From the NCBI RefSeq assembly GCF_000327485.1, contig NC_019943.1:2170001-2234000 (forward strand): 64,000 nucleotides of DNA, in the 5' to 3' direction. The position numbers and the translations under genes are program-made. The notes beneath the pieces were generated by a model. It ran no database searches and had not been told where the DNA came from. It saw only the letters and a program-made list of their open reading frames with translations. Origin of the DNA: Methanoregula formicica SMSP (GTDB taxonomy: Archaea; Halobacteriota; Methanomicrobia; Methanomicrobiales; Methanospirillaceae). Shown piece by piece: positions 42,238 to 53,760 of the stretch (positions are counted from its first letter, which is position 1; every line of letters begins with the position of its first letter).

Positions 42238-44039
42238 TCACGAAACACACAGGCCTACAGGTAGTTTTTCCCGGCAATCTTCCGGTTTTTCCTGCCGGAA
42301 TGCGAATGCTACCTCCTCCCATGCCCTATCGAGGAGGACTCGGTAATACTGCTGGTCAACATAGTTCCGGTATATCATGCGGACCACCTCCTGCGCAGCT
42401 CGCAGTTCCGCCACGGTCTCTGCAGAACTCATTACTGTCAGCATCTCCCGCTGCATGGAGCGGGCGAACTCCGGCGTGTCGTGACGGCGCGGGCTGCGAT
42501 CCCCCGTACCTTCACGCTGCCATCCGGATGCCTGCCGAAATACCGGTTGTGCGCCCCGAACCCGTCCGCAAGAGGGTCAAACACAATCCAGTCAAAGTGT
42601 TCGACTTCGAGAGGCAAGCCGATCTCCTGCTCAACCCGAGCCTTCAGGAGGCCGATCCCGGAGCCCTGCACCCAGAGACAATCGACGATCCCGTGCAGGA
42701 CGGTAAAGCCCATCTTCTCGGAGATATCCTTTGTTTTGATGAGGATCTCCCATGACTGCTTTGTTATCCCCTTGTGCACCTCAATCCTCCCGAACTTCGC
42801 GTTCTTGTAGCCCGTGTAGCCAAAACAGGTGACCAGCATCCACTTCAGGATAGAATCGATCCCGTCGAACGCTGGATCGGTTTTCTTCAGCTGCTTTGTC
42901 CTGATCCGGAGGTCGAGAAGGGGGTTGAGGACCGCGGGAAGAAAACCCGGTTGTTCCGGGTACCCGATGGTCTCCGGGGAGAGATTCCCTTGGACAATGA
43001 TGGAAGGATACATGGACGTGAAATCGATCTCCTCGACATTCTCAAAGACCCCTGGCCGGGGCTGGAACATCATCCCGCCCCGGTCAGCCGACTGGAGCGT
43101 GCTGATCCGCCGGATTGTCTCGCTATCACTCTTCCGGAACGGGACCGCGATGCCCCGCCGGACGGCCTCGTACGTCTCGTAACTGCTGATGAGAGTCCCC
43201 GGGGTAAAGCGCGACGCAAGATTGGGGGAGAGTCCCGAGAGCCGGGCTGACATCAGGACTCCTTCGAGGCCGCCCTCGCGGTACACGAACGACCGTTCGG
43301 TATCGATCAGCACCCTCCCGCCCGGGACAAGAGCCGCATCCTTATGCTCCATCTTCCCGTAACTCCAGTACGAGCGGGAGTCCATTGACCGGTACTTCCC
43401 GTTCCGGGAAAACGGCATGACAAGGCCATGCCTCTGCGCCAGACGACGGAGCCGGGGCATCCATGCATCCGCATCTGGCATCAGGATCACATCCGGATCG
43501 AGGGATGAGACACGCGAGAAGAGATCTGAAAGGACCGTTCCTTCGGGCCCGGCAAAGCGTTCAGTGCGCTCGTGGACCAGCTCGATCTCCGGGAGGGCCG
43601 CTGAGCGCTCAGGTTCACCGTGGATCCGGATTGTGATCGAGTCAAGATCATGGGAACCTTCCTGAGAGAATCGGTCAGTGCCGTTTCCGCTGCACGGGAA
43701 GAACTCATACTCCGCCATGAACCGCTGGTCCCGGTGCACATCCACGTTGAAGAGCTGCACATCGTACTGCGCCTGTCCCTCAATGGCCTCGGCCACCCTG
43801 CGGTCTGCAAAGACACGGTACCCCAAAAGGCTGTCAAAGACCGTGCGGATCGTGCACTCTTCTGCCCCGTACCGCTCCTCCAGCGTACCGATCATCTCGT
43901 GGCTGGCATGCGGGTCGGCGAAATGGACAAAGAACAGCGGGTCATAGGGGTGGTGGACCCGGGTAACGGCCCCGTCCTCATTTGTCCAGAGGTCGATACC
44001 CCCATTGCGGTACGCGGAGTCAATGATCCACATCGCCAT
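42238..44039 (-). pseudogene. Family B DNA polymerase with degenerate motifs, frameshifted near the 3' end
   Basis: The start is taken as ATG 44039 (Met-Ala-Met-Trp-Ile-Ile-Asp). Motif A is intact (EEIDFTSMYPSIIVQGNL, Asp339). Motif B is recognisable (ILKWMLVTCFGYTGYKNAKF, Lys399). Motif C reads LHGIVDCLWV in place of the usual Tyr-Gly-Asp-Thr-Asp-Ser, so one of its two Asp is lost while Asp453 remains. Exonuclease motifs are hard to find. After KVRGIAAR the frame is lost near 42484-42495; one base added or two removed gives RRHDTPEFARSMQREM and continues to 42238. Even then the thumb region is about 100 residues shorter than usual. It overlaps the upstream partner gene by 20 bases. Role: probably repair or translesion synthesis, if functional. 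Confidence 0.78.
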
Positions 44040-44696
44040 TCCTCTCAGCATCGAGATGCTCCTGGCGTTTGAGGATCTCAACCAGAACAGAGAAAGTCGC
44101 CGCCTCCAGCGGGTCGTTGCAGGCAACGAACGCCTCGCTGGAGTGCTCCTTTGCCAGGTCCGCAAGTTTCCTGCCGTATTTCTGGTCCTCCTTTTTGAGC
44201 GCACGGGCCGACCGGTCCGCTGCAACCGGATCGCACGGAGGAACACCCGCGGGGACAGGACTTCAGCAGCCGCTATCTCGATGATCCGGTCTGCCTGGCG
44301 CATCAGCGCGGCAAACGTCCGGTCAATGGCCGGGGCATAGAGGATAACCAGCGACTCGCGACCGGTATCTTTCAGCGCCCTGGCAACCGGTGCAAGCATC
44401 TTCTCCGCGCCCTCGAAGAGCGTGGGGTCGTGCTCGACAAGGACGATAGTGTGCGATGCCTCACGGAGCACCGAGAGGGGCTGGTGGGCCGTGAATGCAT
44501 GGCGGATCTCGAAGTTCGTGCTGTCCCGGGGGATCCCCGAAAGGACCCGGGTGTAGTTCCCGCCGATGTAGAGAAAGAGGAAACGCTGGAGATCCGCATT
44601 GCTGTTGATGGCCGAGACCATCACGTGTACCGGTGCAACCACCGCGTTGCAGCTGCCCGGGTAGAGGCTCATTCCCATACGGATCTCGATCTGCAT
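44020..44696 (-). pseudogene. polB partner protein of unknown function, frameshifted
   Basis: The frame from ATG 44696 gives about 158 sensible residues (FLFLYIGGNYTRVLSG, HTIVLVEHDPTLFEGAEKM, LVILYAPAIDRTFAALM, ADRIIEIAAAEVLSPRVFL). It then turns into Arg/Ser-rich non-coding-like sequence and runs on into polB. Adding one base near 44223-44231 switches to a frame reading VAADRSARALKKEDQKYGRK, HSSEAFVACNDPLEAA and EILKRQEHLDAERNGD, ending at TGA 44020-44022. This restored protein (about 225 residues) overlaps the polB start by 20 bases, a normal coupled arrangement. The alternating beta-alpha pattern resembles a nucleotide-binding fold without a Walker A. I do not recognise the family. Confidence 0.7.
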
Positions 44697-44807
44697 AGCA
44701 CCGGATCGCTGCTGTGCATCATGTGATAAGGCTCAGGCTGGCGGGAGGCAAAAGTGCCCGGTGCGTTCCGCAAGATTGATGTGACACGGGGCGCGATGAG
44801 AGGGATG

Positions 44808-45488
44808 ATGTGCAGCCGCTACGCTCTCTGGGCCGTGGACGATCTGGGGGGACGGTTCCTCAGCGTGGACCCGACCATCGGGTTCCGGTCCCACTTCAAC
44901 ATAGCGCCGCGTTCTGAAAACCCGGTGGTTGTTTCAGCGGACGGCAGGAACCGGATCCGGCTGATGCAGTGGGGGCTCGTGCCGCACTGGTCAGCGGATG
45001 ATCAGACGCTGCCCCGCCCGGTCAATGCACGGGCCGAGACCCTGTCAGAAAAGCCGATGTTCCGGCAGCTGCTGGAGGAGAAACGCTGCCTTGTCGCGGC
45101 AAACGGGTTTTACGAGTGGAAGAAAGAGGGAACGCGGAAGATCCCGTTCTTTTTCCACCGGCCGGACAATGCACTCTTCTCGTTTGCCGGCCTGTATGAT
45201 ACCTGGCTGTCCCCCGCGGGCGAGACGCTGGCGAGTTACACGATCATTACCACCAGCGCAAACGAGCTCATGGCACAAGTCCATGACCGTATGCCGGTGG
45301 TCCTGACGCGGGAAGGGGAAGAGCAGTGGCTGTCTCAGGGTCCATGTTCCCCGGATGAGCTGAAGAAAGTTCTCGTGCCCTGTGCAGACGATGTGCTGGA
45401 GGTGCATGCCGTGTCGCAGCGGGTGAACCGGCCCGGGAAGGATGACGGGGGGATGATTCTTCCGGTGAATGGGCCTGGACTGATTTGA
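44808..45488 (+). CDS. SRAP-domain protein (HMCES/YedK family)
   Basis: The protein has 226 residues. The catalytic Cys must become residue 1 after Met removal, which fixes the start at ATG 44808 directly before TGC (Met-Cys-Ser-Arg-Tyr-Ala). Other active-site features are visible: NARAET (Asn/Arg), ANGFYEWKKEG (Glu) and AQVHDRMPVVL (His). SRAP proteins crosslink to abasic sites in single-stranded DNA and shield them during replication. It is divergent from the polB partner/polB pair, giving a small DNA-damage-tolerance neighbourhood. Confidence 0.93.
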   Translation: MCSRYALWAVDDLGGRFLSVDPTIGFRSHFNIAPRSENPVVVSADGRNRIRLMQWGLVPHWSADDQTLPRPVNARAETLSEKPMFRQLLEEKRCLVAANGFYEWKKEGTRKIPFFFHRPDNALFSFAGLYDTWLSPAGETLASYTIITTSANELMAQVHDRMPVVLTREGEEQWLSQGPCSPDELKKVLVPCADDVLEVHAVSQRVNRPGKDDGGMILPVNGPGLI

Positions 45489-46373: not shown

Positions 46374-46968
46374 TCATGTGGAGGCCAATGAGGATTTAAC
46401 CATTTCAAGAATTCTCAATGCTTCTTCATCTTCCGGATCAATCCTCAACGCTTCATCGATGACATTCTTTGCCAATGTAAAATCCCCTTGTGTTAAGAGA
46501 GGCTCCGGCTTTCATCGTTAATGCAGGCAGATTTTCATTATCAATTCGCAGGGCCGCATCGAAATTGCTGATTGCATCATCAGGTTTGTCGAGATTGAGG
46601 TACGATATCCCCATTCCGATATGTGCAACCATCTGATTATCGGATCCCAAGCCAGATCTAAAAGCCTTCTCAAATTTCTTTACTGCCTGTTCGTTTTTTT
46701 CCTGCCCAATTAGGATCAAACCTTGTTGTATGTTGATCTCGCCATTCCCCGGATCGAGAGATTCTGCGGTATTGAACACCTTGAGCGCATCATCCAACTT
46801 TCCAAGGAACCGAAGAGCCAATCCCAGATTATGCCATGCGTGAACATTGTACCTGTCGAGTTTCACAACATGACGATATGCGGCAACTGCTTTCTGATAT
46901 TCTTCATTTTCATGATATTTCTGCCCGAGGTCGAACCACTCTTCTTTTGATTTCTCTGAATGCTCCAT
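46374..46968 (-). pseudogene. TPR-repeat protein, frameshifted in the last repeat
   Basis: From ATG 46968 the frame encodes four tetratricopeptide units (for example YHENEEYQKAVAAYRHVVKL, HNLGLALRFLGKLDDALKVF and IGMGISYLNLDKPDDAISNF). It then hits a stop at 46453 after an unconvincing tail. Removing one base near 46497-46500 continues in another frame as LTQGDFTLAKNVIDEALRID to TGA 46374-46376. The last unit is then exactly 34 residues, in register with the unit before it. The restored protein has about 197 residues. A GTG at 46992 is an alternative start. It follows the Cys-cluster gene closely and is the last gene of the cassette; TPR domains commonly scaffold partners. Confidence 0.8.
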
Positions 46969-46992
46969 GAACGATCTCGTTTTGTGCAACAC

Positions 46993-47838
46993 TCATTTAC
47001 TGTTGGATTGTTTTTCGTCAGTGGGTTTTTCTGTCGGCAAATAGAAGCATTTGTCCAAGACCAAACTGATCTGCCCTTTGGCAGGCAGGTAGTTCTTCCC
47101 ATAATCCTGCGCTGGTTGTCGCAACGAGATCAGGCGCGGATCGAACGGGAGATCCTTGCCCGGGGAATCCAAAGCTCGTATTACCGGTAACCTGATACCC
47201 TGTTTTTTGAAGGCACTCAGGAAGTTCACTCGGACCTCAGAGAGGAATTCAAAATAATTCGCATTACGGGGGATTTTGAGATGACTTGTCATTTTGTCCC
47301 GGGATTTGGTGTCGTACGGCGCGCAGATATCGGGAAGAAGAATACAAAACTGCTTGGCGAAATACACACTTTCCTTAATTTTGAAACTTTCGAATTTTTC
47401 TTTGAAATAGCTGTCAAACCAGCCATCGCAGAAAAGTGTCTTGTTGTAATTGGCAGATTTTTCGGACAGGGTTTTCCATTCTCCCTTTAAATTTCGTAAG
47501 ACGGTGTAAGCATCCCTGACCCGGGGTCTCAGGTTCGAAGGATCTCCCGCATCAACAGCGGTAATAACATTGAGATGATCACAACGATCGACGAACATTC
47601 TGAGGAATCCGAACATGAAGTCATCGAACTGAACATTCTTTTTCAGCTTCCAGTGACCCGTGCATCCCAGATCTTTTTTACAGGTACAGGATTCATCGCA
47701 GGTACAGTCTACATATTCCCAAAGTTCCGTCCGAGTAGCGTGTTCCTGGATCGGATACTTATTACGATTTTTCGCTGCCTGTTTGTTGGATTCGCCAATC
47801 CTTTCTGTCATCCACTGTTGGGTAATTTCATCGTCCAT
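46993..47838 (-). CDS. Cys-cluster protein of the island cassette, unknown function
   Basis: The protein has 281 residues. A tight metal-site candidate lies at residues 45-62: CTCDESCTCKKDLGCTGHW, with five Cys and one His in 18 residues. The remainder is alpha/beta. A segment KQFCILLPDICAPYDTKSRD (about 162-181) resembles the Leu-x-Pro-x-x-x-Pro-x-Asp signature seen in several horizontally moving accessory proteins, by analogy only. ATG 47838 was chosen because GGTGA lies 5 bases upstream and it follows the nuclease/nitrilase-like gene stop by 17 bases; the frame opens earlier at 47886. AT-richer than flanking genes. Confidence 0.7.
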   Translation of the reverse strand: MDDEITQQWMTERIGESNKQAAKNRNKYPIQEHATRTELWEYVDCTCDESCTCKKDLGCTGHWKLKKNVQFDDFMFGFLRMFVDRCDHLNVITAVDAGDPSNLRPRVRDAYTVLRNLKGEWKTLSEKSANYNKTLFCDGWFDSYFKEKFESFKIKESVYFAKQFCILLPDICAPYDTKSRDKMTSHLKIPRNANYFEFLSEVRVNFLSAFKKQGIRLPVIRALDSPGKDLPFDPRLISLRQPAQDYGKNYLPAKGQISLVLDKCFYLPTEKPTDEKQSNSK

Positions 47839-47855
47839 TCGGATCACCGTTATCT

Positions 47856-49814
47856 CTACTTCATCCTGTTCCCGAACACGATCCACTTCACGAATTCTTC
47901 GATTTCCCCCTCGCTGGAAAAATTGCCGTCAATAAAAATATCGCCAGGGTGCGGATTCTCCCGTTCCTGTTTTATCATCGAACCTTCAGGAAGGATCTTG
48001 ATGATTTCAGCTGCGTTTTGTATTCCCATATTACTTGCAAGAATGTGGGGATAGACACGGAACCGCACCTGGTTGGATCCGGATATTGTTGGCTTGAAAA
48101 GCGAGATCATATCAAGCTCTTTCTTGTTCGGATACCCGATCTCATTTTCTGCCCGGTATGTGAACTTGGTCTTCTGATCAATGACGGATTTCCCGAAAAA
48201 AGAGTCCAATTCTTTTCGTAGTTTTGCATAAATCCCATTCGGATTGATACTGCTGATGTTCGTCCTTTCAACTGCGAGGGAACGATTCTGTGACCGGGCA
48301 TTATTTTTTGTAATGATCTCTGAAGGATTCCTTTTCATCGATTGAATTTTCCCCGCAATGTTGGTGAAAATTCGTACTTCAGCAGATCCCTCGGTCAGCG
48401 GGATCGTAATTGCCGGTGTATCGCAGGGCAGGGTTATATCAGGATATCGCGGTTTTTTCCAGACATCTCCTCCGGTCCAGACAATCCCCGTTGGCCAGTC
48501 GGACGGGATTGACCGTCGGAAAAAGATAGAAGTTCCAAAAAGGGGAATCTTCCATTGGCATGATGCCTCGGACCAGCCATTTAATGGGAAGTAATTTTCC
48601 TGACACAGAAATTCTCCTTTGGGACGGAACCGGTGAATCAGATTTACTCCAATGTCGGCGTCAGGTTTCGGATATTTCCGGGGCTCGTGCCATGGGCCAT
48701 AAACATCATAGCAGACGAAGGGGAAAAACCTGACCCCATTTAGCTCAAAGATACGGGGTTTGCCGAGTTCGCCGTCATGGTGATTTTTAGCAAGTATGAT
48801 ACTGTTCCTTTCGGTATCATCAGACGGGTAAAACTTTCTGCAGATGGAAATTATTCCGGTCCTGTCGATGGTGATTGCTATCTGATCCTGATCGTATGCA
48901 TCTTCAGCGACAGGTCGGTCGAAGAATCCATCAACCCCGATGCAGACTTTGATATTTCGGCTTGTTCCGGAGAGGACTTCCTTCACGCATCGTTCAATCT
49001 CCGGATACATTGTATCTGCCCTCTCGTGTTGTGTATGAACCCAACCACCGGGAAAGAGGACCACTCCGTCCCCCGATGTTTTATCGATCGTTGAACGGAG
49101 AATTTGGTCCAGCTCAGCTATTCGTATCGGGTTATTGCCGGGATCTTTTTCATCAGCAATTTTCAAATTTGATTTCAGAATAACCGTCGCAATCCAGTCT
49201 TGTCTCGGCATTTTGAGAGATATGCCATTCATACTCGTATCTCCGGCCGTGTTTTGGGCTTCAATCAGATTCTGAAATTTTTGAATGTCATTTGCATTAT
49301 TTACGTCAAGACTGCACCATGCCATATCCCTCGCGAATAACCGGACCGTTGGACAGAACCCGTTCGCTTCCGGAATAAAATCCCTCAAAGTATCATACCA
49401 TGCGCGCTGCTCATCACGAAAGGGAGGATCGTTGTCGCATGCACGGATTTCATCGCAATGCCTCACCCAGGTGCTGCGCGAGAATCCGAGATTAATATCG
49501 GAGGGATACTGAGAGAGAGCAATCTTCCGCGGTTCGGTGAAATGCTGCGATTCGTCGAACTCAACAATCATTTTCTGTTCAGGCAGGAAAAAATCAACAT
49601 CGACATATGCCGCCCTGACAAACTTGGAAAAACCGCGATGGTTCTGCAGGGCAGAGTAGATGTCGTTCAGAACAGAATACCTCGGATGTTCCCGCAACTC
49701 TTCTGGTCGCGTCCCGAGTTGTATCCGGTAATTGGGAATGACCGTCCCATAGATTTTTTCAAGAAGTTGCCGGACCCTTACCTTGCATTCCCTGCATCGC
49801 TCATTGTGGGACAT
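47856..49814 (-). CDS. PD-(D/E)XK-like nuclease fused to a nitrilase-like domain
   Basis: The protein has 652 residues. The N-terminus has CRECK and then VDVDFFLPEQKMIVEFDESQ followed by HF (about residues 71-92). The Asp-(10)-Glu-x-Asp pattern with Gln-His is that of DUF559/Vsr-like endonuclease folds. Residues about 205-420 match the carbon-nitrogen hydrolase layout: VVLFPGGWVH (254; Gly256 where nitrilases have the catalytic Glu), ICRKFYP (Lys327) and FFPFVCYDVYG (Cys368). The spacings of about 71 and 41 residues are family-like. A further C-terminal part (about 490-652) is unassigned. ATG 49814 has GGAAG upstream and overlaps the preceding stop by 14 bases. Cassette context suggests defence, as an inference. 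Confidence 0.72.
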   Translation of the reverse strand: MSHNERCRECKVRVRQLLEKIYGTVIPNYRIQLGTRPEELREHPRYSVLNDIYSALQNHRGFSKFVRAAYVDVDFFLPEQKMIVEFDESQHFTEPRKIALSQYPSDINLGFSRSTWVRHCDEIRACDNDPPFRDEQRAWYDTLRDFIPEANGFCPTVRLFARDMAWCSLDVNNANDIQKFQNLIEAQNTAGDTSMNGISLKMPRQDWIATVILKSNLKIADEKDPGNNPIRIAELDQILRSTIDKTSGDGVVLFPGGWVHTQHERADTMYPEIERCVKEVLSGTSRNIKVCIGVDGFFDRPVAEDAYDQDQIAITIDRTGIISICRKFYPSDDTERNSIILAKNHHDGELGKPRIFELNGVRFFPFVCYDVYGPWHEPRKYPKPDADIGVNLIHRFRPKGEFLCQENYFPLNGWSEASCQWKIPLFGTSIFFRRSIPSDWPTGIVWTGGDVWKKPRYPDITLPCDTPAITIPLTEGSAEVRIFTNIAGKIQSMKRNPSEIITKNNARSQNRSLAVERTNISSINPNGIYAKLRKELDSFFGKSVIDQKTKFTYRAENEIGYPNKKELDMISLFKPTISGSNQVRFRVYPHILASNMGIQNAAEIIKILPEGSMIKQERENPHPGDIFIDGNFSSEGEIEEFVKWIVFGNRMK

Positions 49815-50229
49815 CAGGCACTTCCGCAATATTGTTCATCCAACGTATAAACGAAAAATTTTCCATTTTCAACAAATCCCGAGGAAAATTTTTTTTACGA
49901 ATGTTCAGTTCTTGCATTAGGAAGGCATTAACTTCCTTTTTTCGATATGACCGGCTTGAAATGCAGGTAAGATCCCGGACATCATGAAATCCATAATCGA
50001 TGCACCACGGGCGGGCAAGTTTGAGATCAATGTTTTCCCCGGAATAGCCTTTCACATACGAATAGACAATCGCTGATAACTGAAGGACTTCACTCTGACA
50101 AAATCCCTCAAAGACTCTAACATCTGATAGTTCTGAAAGTGAAATGTGCTGAGCGATATAACGGCCTTGAATGTCCTTTACGTTTTTCAGCAGGATCTTC
50201 TTTTGAAGACCCCATTTGGTTTTGAACAC
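49801..50229 (-). CDS. Small beta-rich protein opening the island cassette (start uncertain)
   Basis: From GTG 50229 the frame encodes 142 residues. Coding-like sequence begins earlier, at about 50265 (ATFTGTFIRFG), but no ATG, GTG or TTG lies there in frame, although GGAAGGAG sits just upstream. A non-standard start or an indel is therefore likely. The pattern TFTGTFIRFG, QKKILLKNVKDIQGRYIAQH and IVYSYVKGYSGENIDLKLAR resembles a small OB-like domain common in mobile accessory genes, from memory only. It overlaps the nuclease/nitrilase gene by 14 bases, so it is coupled to it. The longer open frame to 51267 beyond 50270 is antisense noise. Confidence 0.6.
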   Translation of the reverse strand: MFKTKWGLQKKILLKNVKDIQGRYIAQHISLSELSDVRVFEGFCQSEVLQLSAIVYSYVKGYSGENIDLKLARPWCIDYGFHDVRDLTCISSRSYRKKEVNAFLMQELNIRKKNFPRDLLKMENFSFIRWMNNIAEVPDVPQ

Positions 50230-50272
50230 ACCGAATCGAATGAATGTTCCGGTAAATGTTGCTCTCCTTCCC

Positions 50273-50497
50273 TCACCTCCCCCCAAACCGGAAGATCGTG
50301 ATCCCGAAGAACCGCTCGAAGAAGTATAAAACCCCGAAAAAGAAGACCGCATAAATAACAAAGCCGACGATGAACCCGAAGATCCCGGAAAGGCCAAGAG
50401 CGGCGAGCAGAATATTCGAAAGGGTATTGGAAACAAGGATGGCGCAGAGAAGGACGAGCACGAAGGTGACGATGCGCCGGGCTGAGGAGAGATCCAT
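50273..50497 (-). CDS. Small two- or three-helix membrane protein
   Basis: The protein has 74 residues. Helices lie at about 8-28 (VTFVLVLLCAILVSNTL) and 33-62 (LGLSGIFGFIVGFVIYAVFFFG), and the protein ends in an amphipathic stretch (ERFFGITIFRFGG). GC-rich codon use matches the core genome rather than the island. Its stop lies just upstream of the first cassette gene, so transcription could read through. No family recognised. Confidence 0.6.
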   Translation of the reverse strand: MDLSSARRIVTFVLVLLCAILVSNTLSNILLAALGLSGIFGFIVGFVIYAVFFFGVLYFFERFFGITIFRFGGR

Positions 50498-51952: not shown

Positions 51953-52378
51953 TTATCCCGATCTCTTTTTCTTCAGGATGAGGACGTTTTTGTTGTCTTC
52001 ATACCGGTACCGGATATCGTCCATGACCTGGCGGGTCAGGAAGATCCCAAGACCGCCGATCTTCCGGTCGTCGATACTGGCAGAGATATCCGGTTCGGGA
52101 AGGGAGAGCGGGTCGAAGGGTTCAGCGCTGTCCTCGACCCGGATCTCCATGGCAGACTCGTCCGCATGGTAGGACAGGGATACAAGGATCTCCCCCCCGG
52201 CCTCCCCGTACCCGTGCATGATGACATTGGTCACCACTTCCTCTACGGCAAGCTGCGTATCGAGGATGTCCTCGTCCGGAAACTGATGGCCCTGCATGAC
52301 CGATTCGATCAGGTCCGAGACCCGGGGTATCTCGTTGATGTCGGATCTGATTGACAGTGCAGCCGGCCGTTCACTCAT
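51953..52378 (-). CDS. Anti-sigma-factor-type serine kinase (RsbW-like HATPase)
   Basis: The protein has 141 residues and is a single GHKL ATPase. The N-box is QLAVEEVVTNVIMHGYGEAG (about 43-62), the G1 region lies in MEIRVEDSAEPFDPLSLP and the G2-like motif is IGGLGIFLTRQVMDDIRYRY. Such kinases phosphorylate STAS antagonists and bind partners. Archaea lack classic sigma factors, so the output must differ. It lies two bases downstream of the phosphatase stop-start junction (52378/52381) and is cotranscribed with it. Confidence 0.9.
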   Translation of the reverse strand: MSERPAALSIRSDINEIPRVSDLIESVMQGHQFPDEDILDTQLAVEEVVTNVIMHGYGEAGGEILVSLSYHADESAMEIRVEDSAEPFDPLSLPEPDISASIDDRKIGGLGIFLTRQVMDDIRYRYEDNKNVLILKKKRSG

Positions 52379-52380
52379 GG

Positions 52381-53760
52381 TTATTCCGTCCTGATAATCA
52401 TCAGCGTGATGTCGTCTGACTGGGGATGGTCTCCGCAGAATGCCTTGACCTCACCAAGGATCTTGGCCATCATCGTTTTTGAATCCATCCCCTGAGACCG
52501 GGCAATAACGTCGCGCAGCCGCGTTTCCCCGAACATCTCCTGCCGGTTGTTCTCTGCTTCGGTGATGCCATCGGTGTACATGACAAGGATATCCCCCTTC
52601 TCAAGGGTCTTTTTTCCCGCAAAGTACTCCGCTTCCTTCAGGGCCCCTATTGCCATGCCCGTCGCTTCGAGTTCTTCAAACGAGCCATCGGCATGGTACA
52701 GGAGTGGGGGATTGTGACCGGCGTTCACGTAGGTCAGGACCCGGTTCTCTGCATTGAGCGTTGCGTAAAAGAGGGTGACGAACATGCCGGATTTGGAGTC
52801 CGCAGAGATGATCGAGTTCGCCGTGTTGATGGCCTCGGCCGGCTGATCCGGGTACCACGAGGCATTGACCCGGACAACGATCCGTGACAGGGCCATGAAG
52901 AGCGCGGCCGGGATCCCTTTTCCGGACACATCGGCAATCATCAGTCCGAGCCGGTGCTGCGAGATCGGGATCACCTCCAGCGGGATGACATCGAAAAAGT
53001 CCCCCCCCACTTCCTTTGCCATTACGTTCCGCCCCGCAATGTCGAATCCTTCGAGCGGGATCATCGTTTCGGGAAGGAAACTCTGCTGGATCTCGGCTGC
53101 GATCGATAGCTCGGTGTCCTTTCTCTGGATCTCCTTGATCAGGGTGTCGCGCTCTCTTTGCATCCGCCGCTCGTTCTGGAGGTTCCCGATGATGAAGGCA
53201 AAGACAAACATCCCCGCGGCATTGGCCGCGATCATGGGGATCGAGACCAGTTCCACGACAGACAAGGCCTTTTCAAAGGGACTGCAGATGGCAAGCGTCA
53301 TGAGCATGTGGAGCGTTTCCATGGCAATGGCAAAGATGACGGCGATCGTGATCCCGGCAAACTTCCGCTTCCGGGCAAGCCAGATAAGACCCCCGAAGAG
53401 ACCGGCAAGGACGGTGGCAAGGGAGCAGGAATAGACGGTAAATCCCCCGACTGACAGGCGGTGGATTGCTCCGATCAGGCCGGCACCGAGCCCGATCACG
53501 GGGCCTCCCAGCAGGCCGGCGAGCATCGGGCCGAGATCGCGGACATTGATGAATGCCCCGTTCACTTCGAACCCTGCCACCGTGCCATAGACCGAGAGCG
53601 CCCCAAAGAAAATGATGAGGATTGCCTGTACTTTGACAGAGGGCCTGCCCTCAAGAACCTCGGGAAAGAACCGGCTCCTGGTAAGCAGGTAGGCGGCAAC
53701 GATGATGACGCACATCAGCTGAAGAAGGACGATGAGGGATGAGAGGATGGTTGTTGCCAT
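52381..53760 (-). CDS. SpoIIE-type PP2C phosphatase with 5TM LytS-like membrane domain
   Basis: The protein has 459 residues. The N-terminal part (about 1-200) has five or six helices with the 5TMR-LYT signature NVRDLGPMLAGLLGGPVIGL and GLIGAIHRLSVGG. A short coiled coil (LQNERRMQRERDTLIKEIQ) leads to the phosphatase (about 235-455) with metal-binding Asp in VGGDFFDVIPL, MIADVSGKGIPAALFMAL and DDITLMIIRTE. It should dephosphorylate the STAS antagonists in response to a membrane signal. Its gene is upstream of the kinase and divergent from the STAS gene at 53885, across 124 bases. Confidence 0.92.
   Translation of the reverse strand: MATTILSSLIVLLQLMCVIIVAAYLLTRSRFFPEVLEGRPSVKVQAILIIFFGALSVYGTVAGFEVNGAFINVRDLGPMLAGLLGGPVIGLGAGLIGAIHRLSVGGFTVYSCSLATVLAGLFGGLIWLARKRKFAGITIAVIFAIAMETLHMLMTLAICSPFEKALSVVELVSIPMIAANAAGMFVFAFIIGNLQNERRMQRERDTLIKEIQRKDTELSIAAEIQQSFLPETMIPLEGFDIAGRNVMAKEVGGDFFDVIPLEVIPISQHRLGLMIADVSGKGIPAALFMALSRIVVRVNASWYPDQPAEAINTANSIISADSKSGMFVTLFYATLNAENRVLTYVNAGHNPPLLYHADGSFEELEATGMAIGALKEAEYFAGKKTLEKGDILVMYTDGITEAENNRQEMFGETRLRDVIARSQGMDSKTMMAKILGEVKAFCGDHPQSDDITLMIIRTE

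Follow-up and report, generated by a model that had tools for sequence, protein, structure and literature searches.

A 64,000-nucleotide stretch of the Methanoregula formicica SMSP genome (positions 2170001-2234000 of this 2.82-Mb single-contig genome; hereafter the window) was analysed for a cassette of four minus-strand open reading frames in the order A-B-C-D. Genomes and loci used for comparison are designated by G, L and P labels; among named relatives, Methanoregula sp. STB_131 is the closest. The main subject is gene B, which encodes a 652-residue protein that joins a PD-(D/E)XK-like nuclease domain to a nitrilase-like domain. The original prediction, made from the DNA sequence of the window, had described four close-packed genes in an AT-richer island of a GC-rich core, and this layout was borne out. 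A was found to overlap B by 14 nucleotides, gaps of 17 and 24 nucleotides separate B from C and C from D, and the G+C content is 45.4% for the cassette compared to 57.4% for the remainder of the window.

Domains and distribution of protein B

The N-terminal domain of B had been noted for a PD-(D/E)XK-like pattern (Asp74, Glu85, Asp87 and Gln90-His91), and these residues proved invariant in an alignment of 13 nuclease-domain relatives, as did R133-D134-E135 and further positions. The D...ExD catalytic motif of PD-(D/E)XK nucleases is conserved in the B family. By profile search, DUF7255 was detected over its cut-off in the nuclease domains of L065 (7e-10) and of the bacterial protein P0005 (1.2e-6), and DUF559 came just under its cut-off in P0005 (5.8e-4), whereas B of the window scored under both. 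A weak hhalign match of the domain to two DUF559-type domains (E 0.003) placed the motif in register. Because structure prediction of this domain failed (predicted local distance difference test, pLDDT, 41), a PD-(D/E)XK fold is considered likely, short of proof. Assignment of the nuclease to Vsr was rejected, as hhalign aligned the wrong region. PDB sequence profiles gave no meaningful match to the nuclease or the nitrilase-like domain.

The second domain of B, for which a nitrilase-like layout had been proposed, belongs to the nitrilase (CN-hydrolase) superfamily by predicted fold and by sequence. Comparison to real archaeal CN-hydrolases by hhalign gave E 3e-6, and five unrelated control profiles gave E values of at least 0.13. 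The structural model of B was of low confidence (mean pLDDT 41, rising to about 65-87 in parts of residues 230-395); when it was searched against the PDB by Foldseek, the top 28 matches were all structures of the nitrilase superfamily (best 8e-6). The proposed layout held for the fold but not for the catalytic Glu. In the alignment to nitrilases, FP-G was found opposite FP-E, K opposite K and CYD opposite CYD. Lys327, Cys368 and His394 were present in all 15 archaeal members aligned, and the position of the catalytic Glu (256) was Gly or Ala in every one (Gly in B of the window). In known nitrilases, this Glu acts as the general base. The Glu-Lys-Cys triad is incomplete in B, with Lys and Cys kept, and the loss of Glu from 15/15 sequences argues against ordinary hydrolysis by the archaeal domain; the bacterial fusion keeps this residue, however. 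Weak profile matches to RT_UG5-nitrilase were also obtained (best E 0.004), and no reverse transcriptase (RT) family was matched in B by Pfam, NCBIfam or PADLOC.

Matches to some part of B, single-domain ones included, were detected in 12 of 149 relatives and in 30 of 394 genomes of the phylum. Because homologues occur in many genomes, the observation goes beyond chance, and on these comparisons B is a genuine protein family. The predicted fusion recurs as well: nuclease and nitrilase-like domains were found in one frame in nine genomes (that of the window, G031, G112, G146, G086, G329, G219, G209 and G325) spanning five archaeal families (f1, f4, f5, f10 and f18), with an interrupted copy in G293. 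No nuclease-nitrilase fusion was found in the published literature searched. The nitrilase-like domain was also detected on its own (G032, G016, G072 and G423) and joined to a head domain (G174 and a protein of phage contig L124), and the C-terminal domain of B (residues 513-652) occurs as a stand-alone protein in G092 and at the C-terminus in G042 and G056. A third nuclease-domain arrangement was observed in L065:6645-9295, L066:4782-7149 and L067, where a head domain and a DUF7255-type nuclease are followed by another C-terminal region and preceded by a conserved 206-aa gene.

The head domain carried by some B homologues was found to match residues 4-93 of ScoMcrA (5zmm; E 1e-4), where its function is unknown (PMC6224610). 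It is present in homologues of G329, G219, G209, G170 and G174 and on viral contigs L123 and L124. The B family resembles the ScoMcrA-type type IV restriction enzymes in this domain and in its modular DNA-cutting architecture. It differs from them in its PD-(D/E)XK-like nuclease and nitrilase-like domain, with no SBD, SRA or HNH match found, and B of the window is without the head domain.

The viral-contig search yielded P0005, a 760-aa bacterial fusion whose contig bears serine recombinases and is a mobile element. This protein combines a head domain with a nuclease carrying the same motif and with a nitrilase of canonical type, in which FPE and CYD are present. P0005 matched CN_hydrolase at 7.1e-8 and retains the whole Glu-Lys-Cys layout. 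The nitrilase of P0005 matches ordinary nitrilases more closely (1.9e-8) than it does the archaeal domain (0.02), and therefore reflects an independent capture or else an early divergence. A 55% homologue of the C-terminal half of P0005 adjoins a C5-methyltransferase, a type II restriction endonuclease and Vsr.

Table 1. Features of the cassette in window positions.
Feature	Position	Strand	Description
Gene A	49801..50268	-	Small protein, 5'-truncated compared to its family; start codon uncertain; stop 49801-49803
Gene B	47856..49814	-	652-aa nuclease and nitrilase-like fusion; ATG 49814, stop 47856
B residues 1-197	49224..49814	-	CxxC knuckle and PD-(D/E)XK-like nuclease domain, DUF7255/DUF559-related
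B residues 203-490	48345..49208	-	Nitrilase-like domain, predicted CN-hydrolase fold
B residues 513-652	47859..48278	-	Variable C-terminal domain
Gene C	46993..47838	-	Putative Zn-binding protein; 281 aa with ATG 47838 as start; GTG at 47886 possible; stop 46993
Gene D	46374..46968	-	Tetratricopeptide repeat (TPR) protein, frameshifted; ATG 46968; stop at 46453, the rest continuing to 46374 in a different frame
Right junction	50269..50292		Homology to cassette-free species G025 stops at 50292; end of core gene 50273-50497

Transfer of the cassette and occurrence of its genes

The cassette (about 45.9-50.6 kb) was compared to G031 in 300-base bins and found to be 95-100% identical, mostly 98-100%, whereas identity was 85-94% in the left flank and 86-93% in the wider flanks. 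The higher identity of the cassette compared to its flanks points to recent exchange between species, and indicates that A-B and C-D moved lately between Methanoregula species as one composite, in support of the mobility originally suggested. Flanking direct repeats of at least 11 bases were not found as insertion marks, plasmid and phage searches gave no match, and differences from G031 were too few for synonymous and non-synonymous counts.

A conserved system of four genes, as originally put forward, was by contrast not recovered. All four genes were found together in just one other genome, G031, as a near-identical set that is explained by the recent transfer. The search for co-occurrence in unrelated genomes yielded only parts of the set (A-X-B in G112 and G146, and C-D with AbiE in G003). 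The four-gene operon was thus rejected as a conserved unit, since A-B and C-D occur apart.

The product of gene A is probably an OB-like beta barrel, as judged by eye. A of the window was found to be missing the MRTxLQxLxG stretch that its relatives typically have at the N-terminus; position 50292 is the last with homology to the cassette-free species, and A thus appears to be cut at the cassette border. In G112 and G146 a homologue of A precedes B; elsewhere, A homologues lie beside CARF regulator or OGG-like genes. X, the middle gene of A-X-B, is weakly OGG-like (PF21790 E 0.004-0.007, below cut-off). In six loci, a CARF-winged helix-turn-helix gene (HFX_2341 family) was found in divergent orientation next to an A-X or B module; of the 8 copies of this family in five genomes, 6 border on A or B modules. 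In this position the genes resemble CARF3/HFX_2341 regulators, of which HFX_2341 is a repressor of cas genes of Haloferax mediterranei (PMC11434293); a role in regulation of the A-X-B operon is putative. In L081:4506-8802, an A homologue was observed among an EVE-domain gene, a NucS/DUF5655 PDC-S18 gene and a type I restriction-modification (R-M) operon with a type I methyltransferase.

The description of C as a protein with five Cys and a His in 18 residues was confirmed, and this motif, CTCDxxCTCxKxxGCxxH (C61/C63/C67/C69/C75/H78), is retained in 3/3 homologues (G031, G003 and G123). In G123, C is the last gene of an operon that also encodes a YaaA-like protein and, upstream of C, a IIG-like R-M enzyme; in G003, C-D without A-B lies next to AbiEi/AbiEii and an integrase. 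C of the window gave no PF21790 match, and relationship of C to the OGG-like X was rejected, as hhalign was not significant and detected just a similar short stretch around P..DT. D had been read as a TPR protein in a single open frame to 46374. The repeats were clear (Pfam TPR_2 2e-24), but the frame was not, with a stop at 46453 and the rest in another frame.

Two methanogen loci, L082:3610-12042 and L140:2001-11233, were observed to share a Phage_integrase integrase and a similar large primase/ATPase-like gene, with CARF-A-X'-YaaA-like as cargo in the former compared to AbiE-C-TPR in the latter. By gene content they are apparently one integrative-element family with a hotspot for putative defence cargo.

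Neighbouring genes and proposed function

Homologues of the cassette genes were found near known defence genes, in support of the original interpretation: R-M, Vsr, PDC-S18, a PLD-helicase type IV enzyme, AbiE and CARF regulator genes, together with a phage-borne copy. A type IV PLD-helicase gene and BrxD-like/DpdA-like genes lie near L018. At L018:8148-13162 (G032), the nitrilase-like gene and queC overlap, and the former faces a DpdA-like tRNA-guanine transglycosylase gene with a BrxD-like ATPase; this arrangement suggests a connection with 7-deazaguanine DNA modification. In both G174 and G072, a GIY-YIG gene is the neighbour of the nitrilase-like gene. A double GIY-YIG-like protein, 46% identical between L060:6939-7820 and L021:7595-8470, was observed beside the nitrilase-like gene in two genera.

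Taken together, these results lean towards a reading in which B would be the effector of a restriction-type anti-virus module, gated by its catalytically altered nitrilase-like domain and carried from one Methanoregula species to another in a composite cassette. B is best filed among modular restriction-type defence effectors, as a putative member outside any named system so far. The nitrilase-like domain would mainly oligomerise and hold or gate the nuclease, and its Lys/Cys pocket may bind a ligand or modified base. Release of the nuclease, which would then cut invader DNA, would be triggered by foreign DNA or by a ligand produced in the course of infection. A may act as an accessory nucleic-acid binder, and in several relatives the divergent CARF regulator may set expression. 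Nitrilases act as oligomers, and a nitrilase domain builds the tetramer of DRT1, in which it is the effector and its substrate is unknown (PMC13275509); a role in phage defence has been validated for a UG5 RT-nitrilase system (PMC9122126). The B family is like DRT1/UG5 in having a nitrilase-superfamily domain in a multidomain defence-type protein. It differs in that B has a nuclease in place of the reverse transcriptase, the archaeal members are without the catalytic Glu, and no RT gene was recognised in the B-family neighbourhoods read.

Several points weigh against a role of B in restriction-type defence. No PADLOC model matched the window proteins, save for TPR-type matches to D, and by eye no further recognisable defence gene was found within about 18 kb in the window. 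The CARF gene is absent from the window genome, a difference from the loci with CARF3/HFX_2341 regulators. Some B homologues of other families sit among housekeeping genes. The AlphaFold2 model leaves the nuclease fold unconfirmed, and the PD-(D/E)XK assignment is based on the motif and on sub-threshold or weak profile matches.

It is unlikely that B is instead a two-effector abortive-infection protein, in which the nuclease would sense or nick DNA and an active nitrilase-like domain would attack a small molecule (a nucleotide, for instance), in line with the proposal for the nitrilase effector of DRT1. The invariance of Lys327, Cys368 and His394, the intact layout of P0005 and the effector role of the DRT1 nitrilase would fit this scheme; the missing general base would, however, require a base other than Glu throughout the archaeal branch. 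We find it quite unlikely that B has no part in defence and is a passenger DNA-repair or mobile-element maintenance factor. The homologues among metabolic genes in several genomes would agree with such a factor, as would the OGG-like X, which suggests base excision, and the Vsr-like neighbours, which can be repair enzymes; against it stand the patchy distribution, the recent transfer, the head domain of a type IV restriction enzyme and the repeated R-M, AbiE and CARF neighbours.

With A truncated and D frameshifted, the window copy may be just partly functional. These same lesions would be expected if this copy were a decaying, now inactive relic of a once functional defence cassette, which we judge decidedly improbable: B and C are intact (99.1% and 96.6% protein identity to G031), D is an intact 197-aa protein in G031 and G003, and the D frameshift could be an assembly error.

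If B is an effector of restriction-type defence, the pairing of a nuclease with a Glu-less archaeal and a canonical bacterial nitrilase would provide a second, RT-free system for testing the role of nitrilases in immunity, and the archaeal members would be a natural experiment on how the domain functions without its catalytic Glu. In the literature searched, nitrilase domains in phage defence were found just in reverse-transcriptase proteins (PMC13275509, PMC9122126). As a long shot, the family may form a restriction-type defence class in which recognition or conversion of a modification licenses DNA cutting. In archaea the pocket, with its Cys and Lys, could retain without hydrolysis a ligand or base that bears a nitrile or amide group, such as a modification of the 7-cyano-7-deazaguanine type, and bacteria would use the full nitrilase. 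The G032 gene overlapping queC next to a DpdA-like gene is a thin lead in this direction.

PP2C/RsbW genes lie at 51953-53760 of the window, and the PP2C-RsbW-STAS neighbours were found without the cassette in G025, G036, G030, G001 and G034. A functional tie was rejected, as the locus is cassette-free in these five other Methanoregula genomes, and the adjacency is probably chance. Homologous PP2C/RsbW pairs were observed near the B genes of two distant lineages (the window pair; L059:10767-12560; L062:2352-4145), with 54% identity in PP2C. Elsewhere in the window, a DNA-polymerase-B-like reading frame (42238-44696) is apparently split near its 3' end (42438-44696 and 42238-42456) and lies beside an SRAP gene (44754-45488).

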